Assembly (NCBI RefSeq): GCF_003346775.1
Contig: NZ_CP031219.1
Location: 1-64,000, forward strand
Origin: Malaciobacter mytili LMG 24559
Lineage (GTDB): Bacteria > Campylobacterota > Campylobacteria > Campylobacterales > Arcobacteraceae
Length of the DNA: 64,000 bases
Reading direction: 5' to 3'
Shown: piece after piece, positions 1 through 52,605 of the stretch
How the letters are laid out: each line of letters begins with the position of its first letter
Numbering within the stretch: the stretch's first letter is position 1
The notes under the pieces: generated by a model
Databases searched by the model: none
The model's input: only the letters and a program-made list of their open reading frames with translations
What the model was told of the DNA's origin: nothing
Program-made: the position numbers and the translations under genes

Positions 1-1317
1 ATGACAAATAAAGAGTTTTTAGCAATTATCAAAGAAGAATCAACAGCATTAGATTATAACAGATACTTAAAACAACTAGTATATAAAAAAATTTCATCTG
101 ATGAAAATATAGCTATATTTGAAGTAAATAATAAATATATTGCTTCTTGGATAAAAAGTAAATATAAAAACCTTATTCAGCACTGTTTTGAAACTATTGA
201 TGGAACAAAACCAGAAATAGAGATAAAAGTTGCTGGTGAAAAAAAGAGTAAAAAAGAGATAATTACTGAAAAACTAAAAGGGGATAATGCTGAAAGTACT
301 ATTTTAAACCCTTCTTATACATTTGATTCATTTGTTGTTGGAACATCAAATCAAATGGCATATAATGCTTCACTTGCTGTATCAAAAAAGCCTGGTATTC
401 AATATAACCCATTATTTATCTATGGAGGAACAGGATTAGGTAAAACTCACCTTTTACAAGCAATAGGTAATGATGCAATTCAGCAAGGTAAAACAGTTAT
501 TTATGTAACTATTGAACAGTTTATGAATGATTTTACTTTCTCTATTAAAAATAAAAATATGGAACATTTTAGAAATAAATATAGAAAATGTGATGTTTTA
601 TTAATAGATGATATTCAGTTTTTAAGTGGAAAAGAACAAACTCAAGAGGAGTTTTTTCATACATTTAATGAACTTCATAATGCAAAAAAACAAATAGTTA
701 TGACTTCAGATAGATTACCTTCTCAAATAGCTGGACTTGTGGATAGGTTAAAATCAAGATTTGAATGGGGTTTAACAGCCGATATTCAAATACCTGGACT
801 TGAAACTAAAATTGCAATTATTGAAAAAAAATCTGAACTTAATGGAATTAATTTAAGTAGGGAAATTATTAACTTTATTGCTACTAATTTAGATAGTTCA
901 ATTAGGGAAATAGAAGGGGTTCTTATTAGAATTAATGCAAGTGCTTCTTTACTTAATCAAGAGATTAATTTAGAACTTGTACAAAGTTTATTAAAAGAGC
1001 AAATTAAAGAAAATAAAGAGAATATAAAACTTCCTGATATTATTAATATAGTAGCAAGAGAGTTAAATATTAAACCAAGTGATATTAAATCTAAAAAAAG
1101 AACTGCAACAGTTGCCAATGCAAGAAGAGTTGTAATATATCTTGCAAGGGAATTAACACATAACTCAATGCCAGATATTGCAAAGTTTTTAGGTATGAAA
1201 GATCACAGCTCTATTTCACATAATATTAAAAAAGCAAATGAGCTAATAGAAAAAGACGAAAACTTTAAATTAATCATTGAAAATCTTAAAAATAAGATAA
1301 TAAATAAGGAGTGGTAA
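1..1317 (+). CDS. dnaA: Chromosomal replication initiator DnaA
   Basis: Cytoplasmic AAA+ ATPase that binds DnaA boxes and opens the origin. The 438-residue protein has the normal order: domain I (about 1-80), a short linker, the AAA+ domain (about 103-310) with Walker A GGTGLGKT at 142-149 and Walker B DVLLIDDIQF at 198-207, and a C-terminal DNA-binding domain. That last domain carries the DnaA signature around MKDHSSISHNIKKA. The ATG is the first base of the window, so its promoter lies outside. dnaN and gyrB follow on the same strand, the usual replication-gene order. Domain positions are read from the translation; the identification is secure. Confidence 0.98.
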   Translation: MTNKEFLAIIKEESTALDYNRYLKQLVYKKISSDENIAIFEVNNKYIASWIKSKYKNLIQHCFETIDGTKPEIEIKVAGEKKSKKEIITEKLKGDNAESTILNPSYTFDSFVVGTSNQMAYNASLAVSKKPGIQYNPLFIYGGTGLGKTHLLQAIGNDAIQQGKTVIYVTIEQFMNDFTFSIKNKNMEHFRNKYRKCDVLLIDDIQFLSGKEQTQEEFFHTFNELHNAKKQIVMTSDRLPSQIAGLVDRLKSRFEWGLTADIQIPGLETKIAIIEKKSELNGINLSREIINFIATNLDSSIREIEGVLIRINASASLLNQEINLELVQSLLKEQIKENKENIKLPDIINIVARELNIKPSDIKSKKRTATVANARRVVIYLARELTHNSMPDIAKFLGMKDHSSISHNIKKANELIEKDENFKLIIENLKNKIINKEW

Positions 1318-42061: not shown

Positions 42062-42424
42062 ATGGAATCAAAAAAATATAATTGCTTTTTCCAACTTGCT
42101 ACTGATATAATTGGTGGTAAATGGAAAGGTATGGTTCTTTGGGCTTTAAAAAAAGATGTAAGAAGAAATGGGGAGTTAAAAAGACTTATTCCTAATATTT
42201 CACAAAAAATGCTAACTCAACAATTAAGAGAGCTTGAAGAAGCTGGAATTGTAGAAAGAATAGTATATCCTGTAATTCCTCCTAAAGTGGAATATAAACT
42301 TACAAGTGCAGGAGAGAAACTAATTCCTATTTTATATGATTTACATGATTGGGGAAAAGAGTATGCAAAAAACAATGAAATAGGAATAAAGTTTAGTGAA
42401 GATGCTCATTGTGTTATCGATTAG
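42062..42424 (+). CDS. HxlR-family transcriptional regulator 1
   Basis: The 120-residue winged-helix regulator has the family core IGGKWKGMVLWALKKDVRRNGELKRLIPNISQKMLTQQLRELEEAGIV, then YPVIPPKVEYKLTSAG (written in two parts). A single N-terminal Cys (C8) precedes the domain, at about the place where redox-sensing cysteines occur in YodB/HypR relatives. It is divergent from trxA. The gene at 42449 is convergent and a second HxlR gene lies beyond it. Confidence 0.93.
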   Translation: MESKKYNCFFQLATDIIGGKWKGMVLWALKKDVRRNGELKRLIPNISQKMLTQQLRELEEAGIVERIVYPVIPPKVEYKLTSAGEKLIPILYDLHDWGKEYAKNNEIGIKFSEDAHCVID

Positions 42425-43534: not shown

Positions 43535-43873
43535 ATGATAAAAGAAATAGAATATATAGATGATATAGAAAATGAAAAATGTCCAGTTGAAACAGCACTA
43601 GATGTTATAGATGGAAAATGGAAAATTTTAATACTTTGGTATTTAAGAAGAGATACAAAAAGATTTAATGAACTACAAAAACTTATGCCAAAAATCACAC
43701 AAAAGATGTTATCAACAAAATTAAAAGAGTTAGAAGATGATGGTATTATTTTAAGAGTTGTATATCCAGTAGTTCCACCAAAGGTTGAATACTCTTTAAC
43801 TTCTTATGGAATGAGTTTAAAACCTATTTTAAAGCAGTTATATTTATGGGGAGAGGAGCATAAAAAAAGATAA
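43535..43873 (+). CDS. HxlR-family transcriptional regulator 2
   Basis: The 112-residue regulator with core [27 protein letters not shown] and [16 protein letters not shown] is clearly related to the protein at 42062-42424. Cys16 lies just before the domain (KCPVETALD), a position where thiol switches are found in this family. It is divergent from the YhdH-type reductase, the most likely target. It ends in a strong shared terminator with gltX. Confidence 0.93.
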
Positions 43874-45285: not shown

Positions 45286-45386
45286 TATTCTTTATCCTTA
45301 TTTTTATAACTTTTAAAAAATCCAATTGCTGAGACTATTGCTACACTGGCAATAAATACTATCATTACAATATCAAGTGCTTCCAT
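45285..45386 (-). CDS. Putative 33-residue single-helix membrane protein between rlmN and gltX
   Basis: On the minus strand an ATG at 45386, preceded by AAGGAAG, opens a 33-codon frame that ends with a TAA sharing a base with the gltX ATG. It starts 14 bases inside the rlmN end. The peptide has a short N terminus (MEALDIVM), one hydrophobic helix ([16 protein letters not shown]) and a charged tail (KSYKNKDKE). Filling the gap exactly, with overlaps on both sides, argues for a real translationally coupled gene. I do not recognise a family. Confidence 0.65.
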
Positions 45387-46440
45387 TAGCTTCCTTTTCT
45401 TTTAATTGACCACATGCAGCTGAGATATCAAGACCTTTTGATTCTCTTATAGTGCAAAGCAATCCTTTGCTTAATAAATACTCTTGGAATTTTACCATAT
45501 CTTTACTTTCTGGTCTTTGATATGTAGTACCTGGATATGGATTAAAATAGATTAAATTTACTTTTGCATTTATTCCATTTAAAAGTTTTACTAAATTATC
45601 TGCTGATTTTATATCATCATTTTTATCTTTAATAACTAGATATTCAAACATAACTTTTTTTCTAGTATCAATAGGAAATTTTCTAACAGCATCAATAATT
45701 GTTTTTATATTATAAGCTTTATTCATTGGAATTAATTCGCTTCTTAATTCATCATCAACAGCATGTAAAGAGATAGCTAATTGTATTCCTAAATCTTCTT
45801 TTCCAAGTTTCTCTATTTTTGTACTAATTCCTGAAGTTGAAACAGTTTGTCTTCTTCTACTAATTGCTAATCCATCAAGTTCACTAAATATCTTTACAGC
45901 TTTTACAAAGTTGTTGTAATTATCAAGTGGTTCACCCATACCCATATAAACTATATTTAAAGATTTATTTTCAGGTATTTCATTATCTCTTTTTATATTA
46001 ACAATTTGAGCTATATACTCTCCTACTGTTAAATTTCTAACAAAACCACCTTTTGCTGTAAGGCAGAAACTACACCCTACTTTACATCCAACTTGAGATG
46101 AGATACATACAGTATATTTTTCACTTCTTTCTATTGTTCCATCTTCAGCAATTTTTTTCTTTTTCATCAATAATAAAACAGCTTCAACAGTTACCCCATC
46201 ATGGAGCCTAAAAAGATATTTAATACTTCCATCTATACTTTTTTCTTTTTTTATAATTTGCATTACATCAATTGTATAGTTTTGTTTTAACTCTTCAATT
46301 AAGTCTTTTGGTAAATTTTTCATTTCTTCAAAAGAGCTAGCGTATTTTTTATATAGCCAGTTATATACTTGTTTTGCTCTAAATGAAGGTTTTAATTTTT
46401 CTTTTAATTCTTCTAAAGTGAAATCATAAATTGATTGCAT
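45373..46440 (-). CDS. rlmN: Dual-specificity RNA methyltransferase RlmN
   Basis: Radical-SAM enzyme methylating A2503 of 23S rRNA and A37 of some tRNAs. The 355-residue protein has the Cx3Cx2C cluster motif in [18 protein letters not shown], the GEP-like MGMGEPLDN, and the second catalytic Cys in SAACGQL near the C terminus. All fit RlmN rather than Cfr. Its end overlaps a small frame that leads into gltX. Confidence 0.95.
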
Positions 46441-46559
46441 TTCTACCTTTCTTTCACATAATATATAATTATTATATCTTTTTTTTACCCTATTTTTGCT
46501 TTGGTAACATATCTAATTTTTATTCTAAAAAAATTAGATATGTTATTAAATTTAATTAA

Positions 46560-46579
46560 ATTGTTTCACGTGAAACAAT
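46560..46579. promoter_or_regulatory. parS-type centromere site 1
   Basis: ATTGTTTCACGTGAAACAAT, a perfect 20-bp palindrome containing the 16-bp chromosomal parS consensus TGTTTCACGTGAAACA. ParB would bind here to organise origin segregation. Confidence 0.9.
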
Positions 46580-46744
46580 GATATGAAAGAGTTAAATTTA
46601 TAAATAAAGTATTTATATATAAAATAAATAAAGATAAAGAAGTATTTAAAATAAATCGTAAATATGGAAGTATTTAAAAATAAAGATATAAAAATATTTT
46701 TATATTAAAACTAGAAAAAGTAATTATAAATTAGATTAAATTTA

Positions 46745-46775
46745 AAAGATTAAGAAATAAAAATTCTTAATCTTT
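46745..46775 (-). terminator. Hairpin downstream of the nucleosidase-like gene
   Basis: AAAGATTAAGAA / TTCTTAATCTTT, a perfect 12-bp stem with a 7-base loop followed on the minus strand by TTTT. It is a likely terminator of the gene at 46822-47358. Confidence 0.6.
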
Positions 46776-46792
46776 ATAAAAAAAATTTTTTA

Positions 46793-46808
46793 TGTTTCAC
46801 GTGAAACA
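46793..46808. promoter_or_regulatory. parS-type centromere site 2
   Basis: TGTTTCACGTGAAACA, an exact match to the 16-bp chromosomal parS consensus, 14 bases past the end of the nucleosidase-like gene. Confidence 0.9.
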
Positions 46809-46821
46809 ATGAAGTGAAATA

Positions 46822-47358
46822 CTATTTTATTATATTTTTTTCAATTAAATAGTTTGTTAATTTTGACATTGCTTCTTTATGATTTTTTAAAAAATCTTCA
46901 TGGGCATTTTCATTTGTATAGTTTGTTACTATAAAAATTCCACCAACTGGAATTTGAAACTCACGAGCTACTTGAAGTACAGAAAAATATTCCATATTTT
47001 CTATACCTATTCCATAGGCATTAAATTTTTTGCTTAAAGCAAAATTTGTAGAAATATAGTTTGAACTATTTACTATAGTATCATTTCTTACAAATTTATT
47101 TTCAGATTCTAAGACATTATCAAGAGGAGTATAAGAGTTGTTGTTTAAAAAAGACAATTCTATATTTGAAGCTCTTTTTGATTCTATAATATCAAAAATA
47201 TTATGCTCTCCATATGAACCAGCACTTCCAACAAAAAGTAAAAAGTCAGGTTTATTGAAAAGACACAATCTTGTTAGATTAATTGCCATTTCTATTAAAC
47301 CTACTCCCATAGGTTGTGCAAAATTAAAGACTTCATTTTTTCCTGCGCAGATTATCAT
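46822..47358 (-). CDS. Short nucleoside phosphorylase/nucleosidase-like protein
   Basis: The 178-residue protein resembles the PNP/MTA-SAH nucleosidase fold. Support comes from the N-terminal CAGKNEVFNFAQPMGVGLIEMA and LLFVGSAGSYG, the ribose-binding IGIENMEYFSVLQVAREFQIPV and a late TNYTNENAHEDFLKNH. It is shorter than the usual 230 residues, lacking N-terminal strands, so activity is uncertain; relatives include futalosine and methylthioadenosine hydrolases. Its start overlaps the end of the SIMPL gene by 4 bases, placing it in an operon after hisF. Confidence 0.8.
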   Translation of the reverse strand: MIICAGKNEVFNFAQPMGVGLIEMAINLTRLCLFNKPDFLLFVGSAGSYGEHNIFDIIESKRASNIELSFLNNNSYTPLDNVLESENKFVRNDTIVNSSNYISTNFALSKKFNAYGIGIENMEYFSVLQVAREFQIPVGGIFIVTNYTNENAHEDFLKNHKEAMSKLTNYLIEKNIIK

Positions 47359-51642: not shown

Positions 51643-52605
51643 ATGGATTTTAAAGCAGTTGCACAAGAGGTTTTAATAACTGAAGCAAAAGAGTTAGAGT
51701 TAGCTGCAAAAAATTTAGATGTTGATTTTGAAAAAATTGTTGAATTAATTGTTAATTCAAAGGGTAAACTTATTGTAACAGGAGTTGGAAAATCTGGACT
51801 TGTTGGAGCAAAAATAGCTGCAACATTAGCTAGTACAGGTACAAGCTCTTTTTTCTTGCATCCCACTGAGGCAATGCATGGAGATTTAGGTATGATAGGA
51901 AAAGAGGATATTGTACTTGGTATTTCTTATAGTGGAGAGAGTGAAGAATTAATACAAATTCTTCCTCATCTAAAAAGATTTGATATTCCTTTAATTGCTA
52001 TGGCAAAATCAAAAACTTCTACGTTAGCAAAATATTCAGATTTTTTTATGGATATTAATGTATCAAAAGAGGCATGTCCTTTGGATACTGCCCCAACCTC
52101 TTCTACAACTTTAACTATGGCTATGGGTGATGCTTTAGCTGTATGTTTAATGAAAAAAAGAGAGTTTAAAAAAGAGGATTTTGCCTCTTTTCATCCAGGT
52201 GGAAGCTTAGGGAAAAAACTTTTTATTAAAGTGGATGATTTACTAAGAAAAGAGAATCTTCCTGTGGTTTCACGTGAAACAAAATTAAAAGATGCTATTG
52301 TAATTATGAGTCAAGGAAGACTAGGAAGTGTTATAATAATAGATGAAAATGAGAAAGTAATAGCACTTTTAAGTGATGGGGATTTAAGAAGAGCATTAAT
52401 GCAAGATAATTTTACATTAGATTGTAATATTCTTGAAGTTGCTACTTTAAATCCAAAAGTTTTAAATGATAAAAATATATTAGCAAGTGATGCTTTACAA
52501 ATTATCGAAGATTTTAAGATACAACTTTTAATAGTAGTTGATAACAATGAAAAACTAGTTGGGGTATTACATATTCATGATTTAATAGAAGCAGGAATAA
52601 AATAA
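51643..52605 (+). CDS. Arabinose-5-phosphate isomerase, KpsF/GutQ type
   Basis: Makes arabinose 5-phosphate for Kdo in LPS or capsule. The 320-residue protein has an N-terminal SIS sugar-isomerase domain (about 30-190) with TGVGKSGLVGAKIAATLASTG, ISYSGESEEL and PTSSTTLTMAMGDALAV. Two CBS domains follow (about 205-320). The linker around residue 210, VSRETK, is encoded by a parS-type palindrome. It sits 9 bases after rnj. Confidence 0.93.
   Translation: MDFKAVAQEVLITEAKELELAAKNLDVDFEKIVELIVNSKGKLIVTGVGKSGLVGAKIAATLASTGTSSFFLHPTEAMHGDLGMIGKEDIVLGISYSGESEELIQILPHLKRFDIPLIAMAKSKTSTLAKYSDFFMDINVSKEACPLDTAPTSSTTLTMAMGDALAVCLMKKREFKKEDFASFHPGGSLGKKLFIKVDDLLRKENLPVVSRETKLKDAIVIMSQGRLGSVIIIDENEKVIALLSDGDLRRALMQDNFTLDCNILEVATLNPKVLNDKNILASDALQIIEDFKIQLLIVVDNNEKLVGVLHIHDLIEAGIK
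52266..52281. promoter_or_regulatory. parS-type site 3, inside kpsF
   Basis: GGTTTCACGTGAAACA, 15 of 16 bases of the parS consensus with a perfect 14-bp palindrome core (52267-52280). It encodes the SIS-CBS linker of the isomerase. The CGT arginine codon it requires is rare in this AGA-rich genome. Confidence 0.8.

Follow-up and report, generated by a model that had tools for sequence, protein, structure and literature searches.

Three origin-proximal palindromes as the probable chromosomal centromere (parS) of an Arcobacteraceae bacterium

parS is the short palindromic "centromere" that ParB grips to pull new chromosome copies apart. A first-pass annotation of the DNA considered here noted two copies of the ParB consensus bracketing an AT-rich block, and thereby raised the question of whether this locus is the centromere of its chromosome and, if so, which elements belong to it. 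The window, by which we mean the whole analysed stretch of 64,000 nucleotides, corresponds to the start of a contig of 2,867,150 bp (C1); the genome also comprises a second contig of 170,445 bp (C2). In this study, we find the real unit to be a cluster of three sites spanning 5.7 kb, not two sites and an AT-rich block (Table 1), and these three sites are almost certainly the chromosomal ParABS centromere (parS) of this Arcobacteraceae chromosome. Computed here were the sites themselves, their uniqueness in the genome, their proximity to the origin, their evolutionary constraint, and the matching ParA and ParB proteins with their motifs. The centromere is of a known kind with an ordinary mechanism; what sets it apart is its phylum-wide position, a site within a coding sequence and the missing Smc-ScpAB.

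Table 1. Positions of the parS sites and associated features in the window
Feature	Position	Strand	Details
dnaA, origin marker	1..1317	+	DnaA TIGR00362 match at G000:C1:13-1299
rlmN, flanks the paired sites	45373..46440	-	TIGR00048, 453 bits
parS site 1, perfect 16-bp palindrome TGTTTCACGTGAAACA	46562..46577	.	rlmN-mqnB spacer
AT-rich non-coding spacer	46578..46792	.	between parS sites 1 and 2
parS site 2, perfect 16-bp palindrome TGTTTCACGTGAAACA	46793..46808	.	rlmN-mqnB spacer
mqnB-like PNP/UDP-phosphorylase-family gene	46822..47358	-	PF01048; weak futalosine hydrolase match
kdsD/kpsF, arabinose-5-phosphate isomerase, SIS + CBS domains, host of site 3	51643..52605	+	TIGR00393 370 bits; PF01380, PF00571
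parS site 3 GGTTTCACGTGAAACA, 14-bp core intact	52266..52281	.	inside kdsD codons 208-213 (V-V-S-R-E-T)

The sites and the replication origin

Both perfect 16-mers described at first pass are present, as are the span given for the second and the 20-bp perfect palindrome around the first (ATTGTTTCACGTGAAACAAT, 46560-46579). The span given for the first (46563-46576) covers its 14-bp core and falls short of the full 16-mer, and the count of exactly two sites missed the third copy, which has one mismatch to the consensus and lies in kdsD. The degenerate core GTTYCAYRTGRAAC matched three times in the window against 0.00 expected from 100 window shuffles, and the 16-mer with up to three mismatches likewise gave three matches against 0.38 expected. 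Throughout the genome (3.04 Mb), the three window sites were the sole matches with at most one mismatch; the motif is therefore not scattered around the chromosome, all such sites lying within ~52 kb of dnaA. Two matches with two mismatches, at 1.25 and 1.96 Mb, were taken as chance, since a reversed control yields one too.

The spacer holding sites 1 and 2, with rlmN on one side and mqnB on the other, is indeed non-coding and 85% AT, but its importance had been overstated. The intervening sequence varies within the genus, as does the distance between the two sites (across five members, counting the window's genome: 231, 222, 46, 45 and 46 bp), and we rejected the AT-rich block as a conserved element. 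A search of the spacer for structured RNA gave no Rfam match. We also discarded palindromes extending beyond 16 bp, as flank complementarity among 172 distinct non-kdsD sites equalled the shuffled expectation. A separate perfect 16-bp inverted repeat (AACATATCTAATTTTT / AAAAATTAGATATGTT, 7-nt loop) occupies 46506-46544, upstream of rlmN. Elsewhere in the window, two HxlR-like regulator ORFs (43535-43873 and 42062-42424) flank an alcohol-dehydrogenase-like gene.

Downstream of dnaA lie dnaN-like and gyrB-like ORFs. Between dnaA and ~1.4 Mb most GC skew samples are positive, and between 1.55 and 2.75 Mb most are negative, which fits an origin near dnaA; over the last 100 kb before dnaA the samples are mixed, so skew by itself does not pinpoint the origin. 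For Arcobacter butzleri, oriC has been predicted to flank dnaA (PMC5043019). From this and the GC skew, we take the three sites, located ~46-52 kb from dnaA on a 2.87 Mb chromosome, to be origin-proximal.

Conservation, position and drift across Campylobacterota

Sites with at most one mismatch were found in 87 of the 104 Arcobacteraceae genomes and in 292/397 genomes of the phylum sample. Across Campylobacterota, genomes carry one to five parS-type sites, clustering near dnaA: in the 37 genomes with dnaA placed, 70 of 71 sites lay no more than 200 kb from it. The sole distant site (TGTTTCAAGTGAAACA at G083:C1:1512074-1512089, one mismatch, 1.15 Mb from dnaA) may be chance or an extra site. 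The distance between parB and dnaA, available for 27 of the 37, had a median of 713 kb, ~0.55 of an arm.

Most sites fall within an rlmN-mqnB-hisF-ksgA-rnj-kdsD block. The window's genus (g1) has a close pair in the rlmN-mqnB spacer and one site in kdsD; the pair was present in all g1 members examined that have the spacer on one contig, and also in one genome of another genus, while in the g1 genome G078 the paired sites are split over two contig ends. Counterparts of site 1 occupy the rlmN-mqnB spacer of several genera, and other genera have one spacer site, or else carry a site within or close to frdB, or next to phoH. Outside Arcobacteraceae, sites are often found inside mqnB and ~0.3-1.4 kb beyond rlmN. 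Loci L216-L218, L210 and L224 have sites without any recognised block gene nearby, making the block a strong tendency and not a rule. Our literature searches, with most subscription journals outside their coverage, returned no description of this Campylobacterota parS arrangement. In one locus (L099, genome G057), the rlmN-mqnB spacer beside parS is filled by a ~60-nt unit (GATGCTTTCGCATATCCATTTCGCTTC...) repeated in tandem about eight times.

In loci selected by motif, codons 209-213 were the lowest-entropy stretch of kdsD, with CGT encoding Arg where AGA is usual. Because motif selection biases such an analysis, it was redone on loci fetched by protein. In these, all examined genomes of g2, g5, g10 and g18 had the canonical core; g6, g9, part of g13 and every g8 genome except one had a drifted core at those codons. 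A parS-type core occupied codons 209-213 in 37 of 80 KdsD loci (named records, fetched by protein), and in the 1.3 Mb of these loci parS-type cores numbered 103, while the complement control pattern matched 0 times. Within Arcobacteraceae, nearly all protein-fetched loci preserve the site codon for codon, and its sequence in kdsD is under selection as DNA, not as protein. One record titled Helicobacter pylori PMSS1 (L255, CAMCYD010000010.1) encodes a KdsD 74% identical to that of the window in Arcobacteraceae synteny; its title looks wrong.

An apparent absence of parS in g6, g8 and g13 was rejected, as drifted sites are present there. All 18 Arcobacteraceae genomes searched from g6, g8, g9 and g13 contain one to three copies of GTTYCAYRTGRAAC, and none a copy of the reversed control pattern; 17 of them lack a canonical site, while G037 has a single one-mismatch match. 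Most genera apparently without parS thus carry a drifted form, for example GTTCCACATGGAAC. Both sites of one genome often bear the same change, and R173 and G201 of ParB stay unchanged while the sites drift. Among 26 other genomes searched, eight had no copy of the degenerate pattern, all of them outside Arcobacteraceae (e.g., several g30 genomes, f6 g26 and f13 g65).

Partition proteins and rival explanations

The idea of a genome without parB was dispelled by a chromosomal parAB operon at ~2.099 Mb, adjoining an atpF-like gene and 769 kb from dnaA. Its ParB (289 aa) combines ParB_N (PF02195) and HTH_ParB (PF17762) domains, and finds its best match in H. pylori Spo0J (PDB 4umk, E 6e-68). ParA is the 258-aa ORF directly upstream, which has a Walker-type motif (KGGVGKTTT) and matches ParA-family models with scores below their cut-offs. 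An earlier study describes R173 and G201 as residues for parS specificity that are absolutely conserved (PMC7383237). The chromosomal ParB retains R173, N178 and G201 in Caulobacter numbering, which was anchored on the KSR and GHAK motifs and not on alignment to Caulobacter ParB; R173 and G201 are also retained in 30 relatives, genera with drifted sites among them. Together, the clustered sites and the chromosomal parAB support the initial reading of ParB-consensus sites in an origin-proximal partition zone.

Because the spacer upstream of rlmN contains sites 1 and 2 and the motif is centred on CACGTG, an E-box-like core, the palindromes could also be operators of an unrelated transcription factor controlling rlmN, mqnB or kdsD. 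We consider this very unlikely: site 3 is within coding sequence and other families have sites inside mqnB or beyond rlmN, so promoter position is unconserved though the 16-mer is conserved; moreover, the few sites of this genome all cluster near the origin, and the genome encodes a ParB whose specificity residues match. The parS half-site also contains TTCAC, the core of the Epsilonproteobacterial DnaA box (PMC5043019), and each palindrome could on that ground be a pair of DnaA boxes with their cores in inverted orientation. Such boxes have next to no probability here, as in the drifted genera the half-sites become TTCCA, TTCAC being lost while the palindrome stays, and 46 kb separate the sites from the dnaA-dnaN region. 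Noc and its NBS sites resemble our system in that the proteins have homologous folds and the sites belong to a class of 16-bp palindromes. Noc, however, has Q173, K179/K184 and R201 (PMC7383237), where the ParB here has R173, T179, Q184 and G201; with a TIGR04285 score of 217, below the cut-off of 315, and sites that are parS and not NBS, this identity was rejected.

Contig C2 encodes a second parAB (C2:123350-125629; ParB of 370 aa), and the palindromes might accordingly be the centromere of, or be shared with, the partition system of that replicon. This too is extremely improbable, given that the whole-genome search found no copy of the 16-mer on C2 with up to two mismatches, that the C2 ParB has GRDK where KSR would stand, and so lacks R173, and shows no aligned GHA(K/R) at 201-204, that C2 has inverted repeats of its own just upstream of parA, and that single-contig relatives carry the same chromosomal sites. 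The repeats upstream of C2 parA are of the ATTACGAT...ATCGTAAT type (L090:11104-11173) and form a candidate separate centromere.

Mechanism and relation to known systems

For the chromosomal parS cluster, we infer that ParB in this species binds and spreads from the sites and acts in segregation. The chromosomal ParB is predicted to nucleate on the three palindromes and then, if it behaves like the ParB proteins studied elsewhere, to bind CTP, close into a sliding clamp and load the surrounding several kilobases; nucleoid-bound ParA-ATP would draw newly copied origin regions apart. The condensin search covered Smc and ScpA. No SMC_prok_B match over the cut-off was found in 23 genomes and no ScpA match in 19, with controls positive in both cases; the two components of a ParB-Smc loading module were thus not detected. 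With Smc and ScpA undetected, the ParB complex probably acts via ParA rather than by loading Smc.

More broadly, we lean towards the view that most Campylobacterota share an old, fixed centromere locus at rlmN-mqnB-hisF-ksgA-rnj-kdsD, which would hold one to three selected parS sites, some of them coding, that drift together within a genome, with parAB far away, no Smc-ScpAB, and ParB-parS functioning without Smc-ScpAB loading. The three-site cluster identifies the centromere in a bacterial family that has been little studied, and supplies exact sites for deletion and imaging. With Smc-ScpAB seemingly missing and parAB far from the origin, Campylobacterota make a natural test case for the role of parS, and concerted site drift in sister genera, with R173/G201 constant, allows direct tests of ParB-parS specificity.

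As in the ParABS systems of Bacillus subtilis and Caulobacter crescentus (reviewed in PMC7333895), we found the 16-bp TGTTTCACGTGAAACA in an origin-proximal cluster, with a single chromosomal ParA and ParB, the LGRGL, GERRxRA and ENxQRxxLN motifs, and HTH_ParB. Unlike these systems, in which parAB is usually origin-linked, parAB here is 769 kb away, Smc and ScpA are undetected, one site lies in kdsD, and there are only three sites. The H. pylori Soj/Spo0J-parS system (4umk; PMC11229316) belongs to the same phylum and provides the closest solved ParB. HpParB was assayed on TGTTCCACGTGAAACA (PMC11229316), a site one substitution from the consensus and identical to sites in a relative (G070), whereas in the window genome two of the three sites show the fully symmetric consensus.
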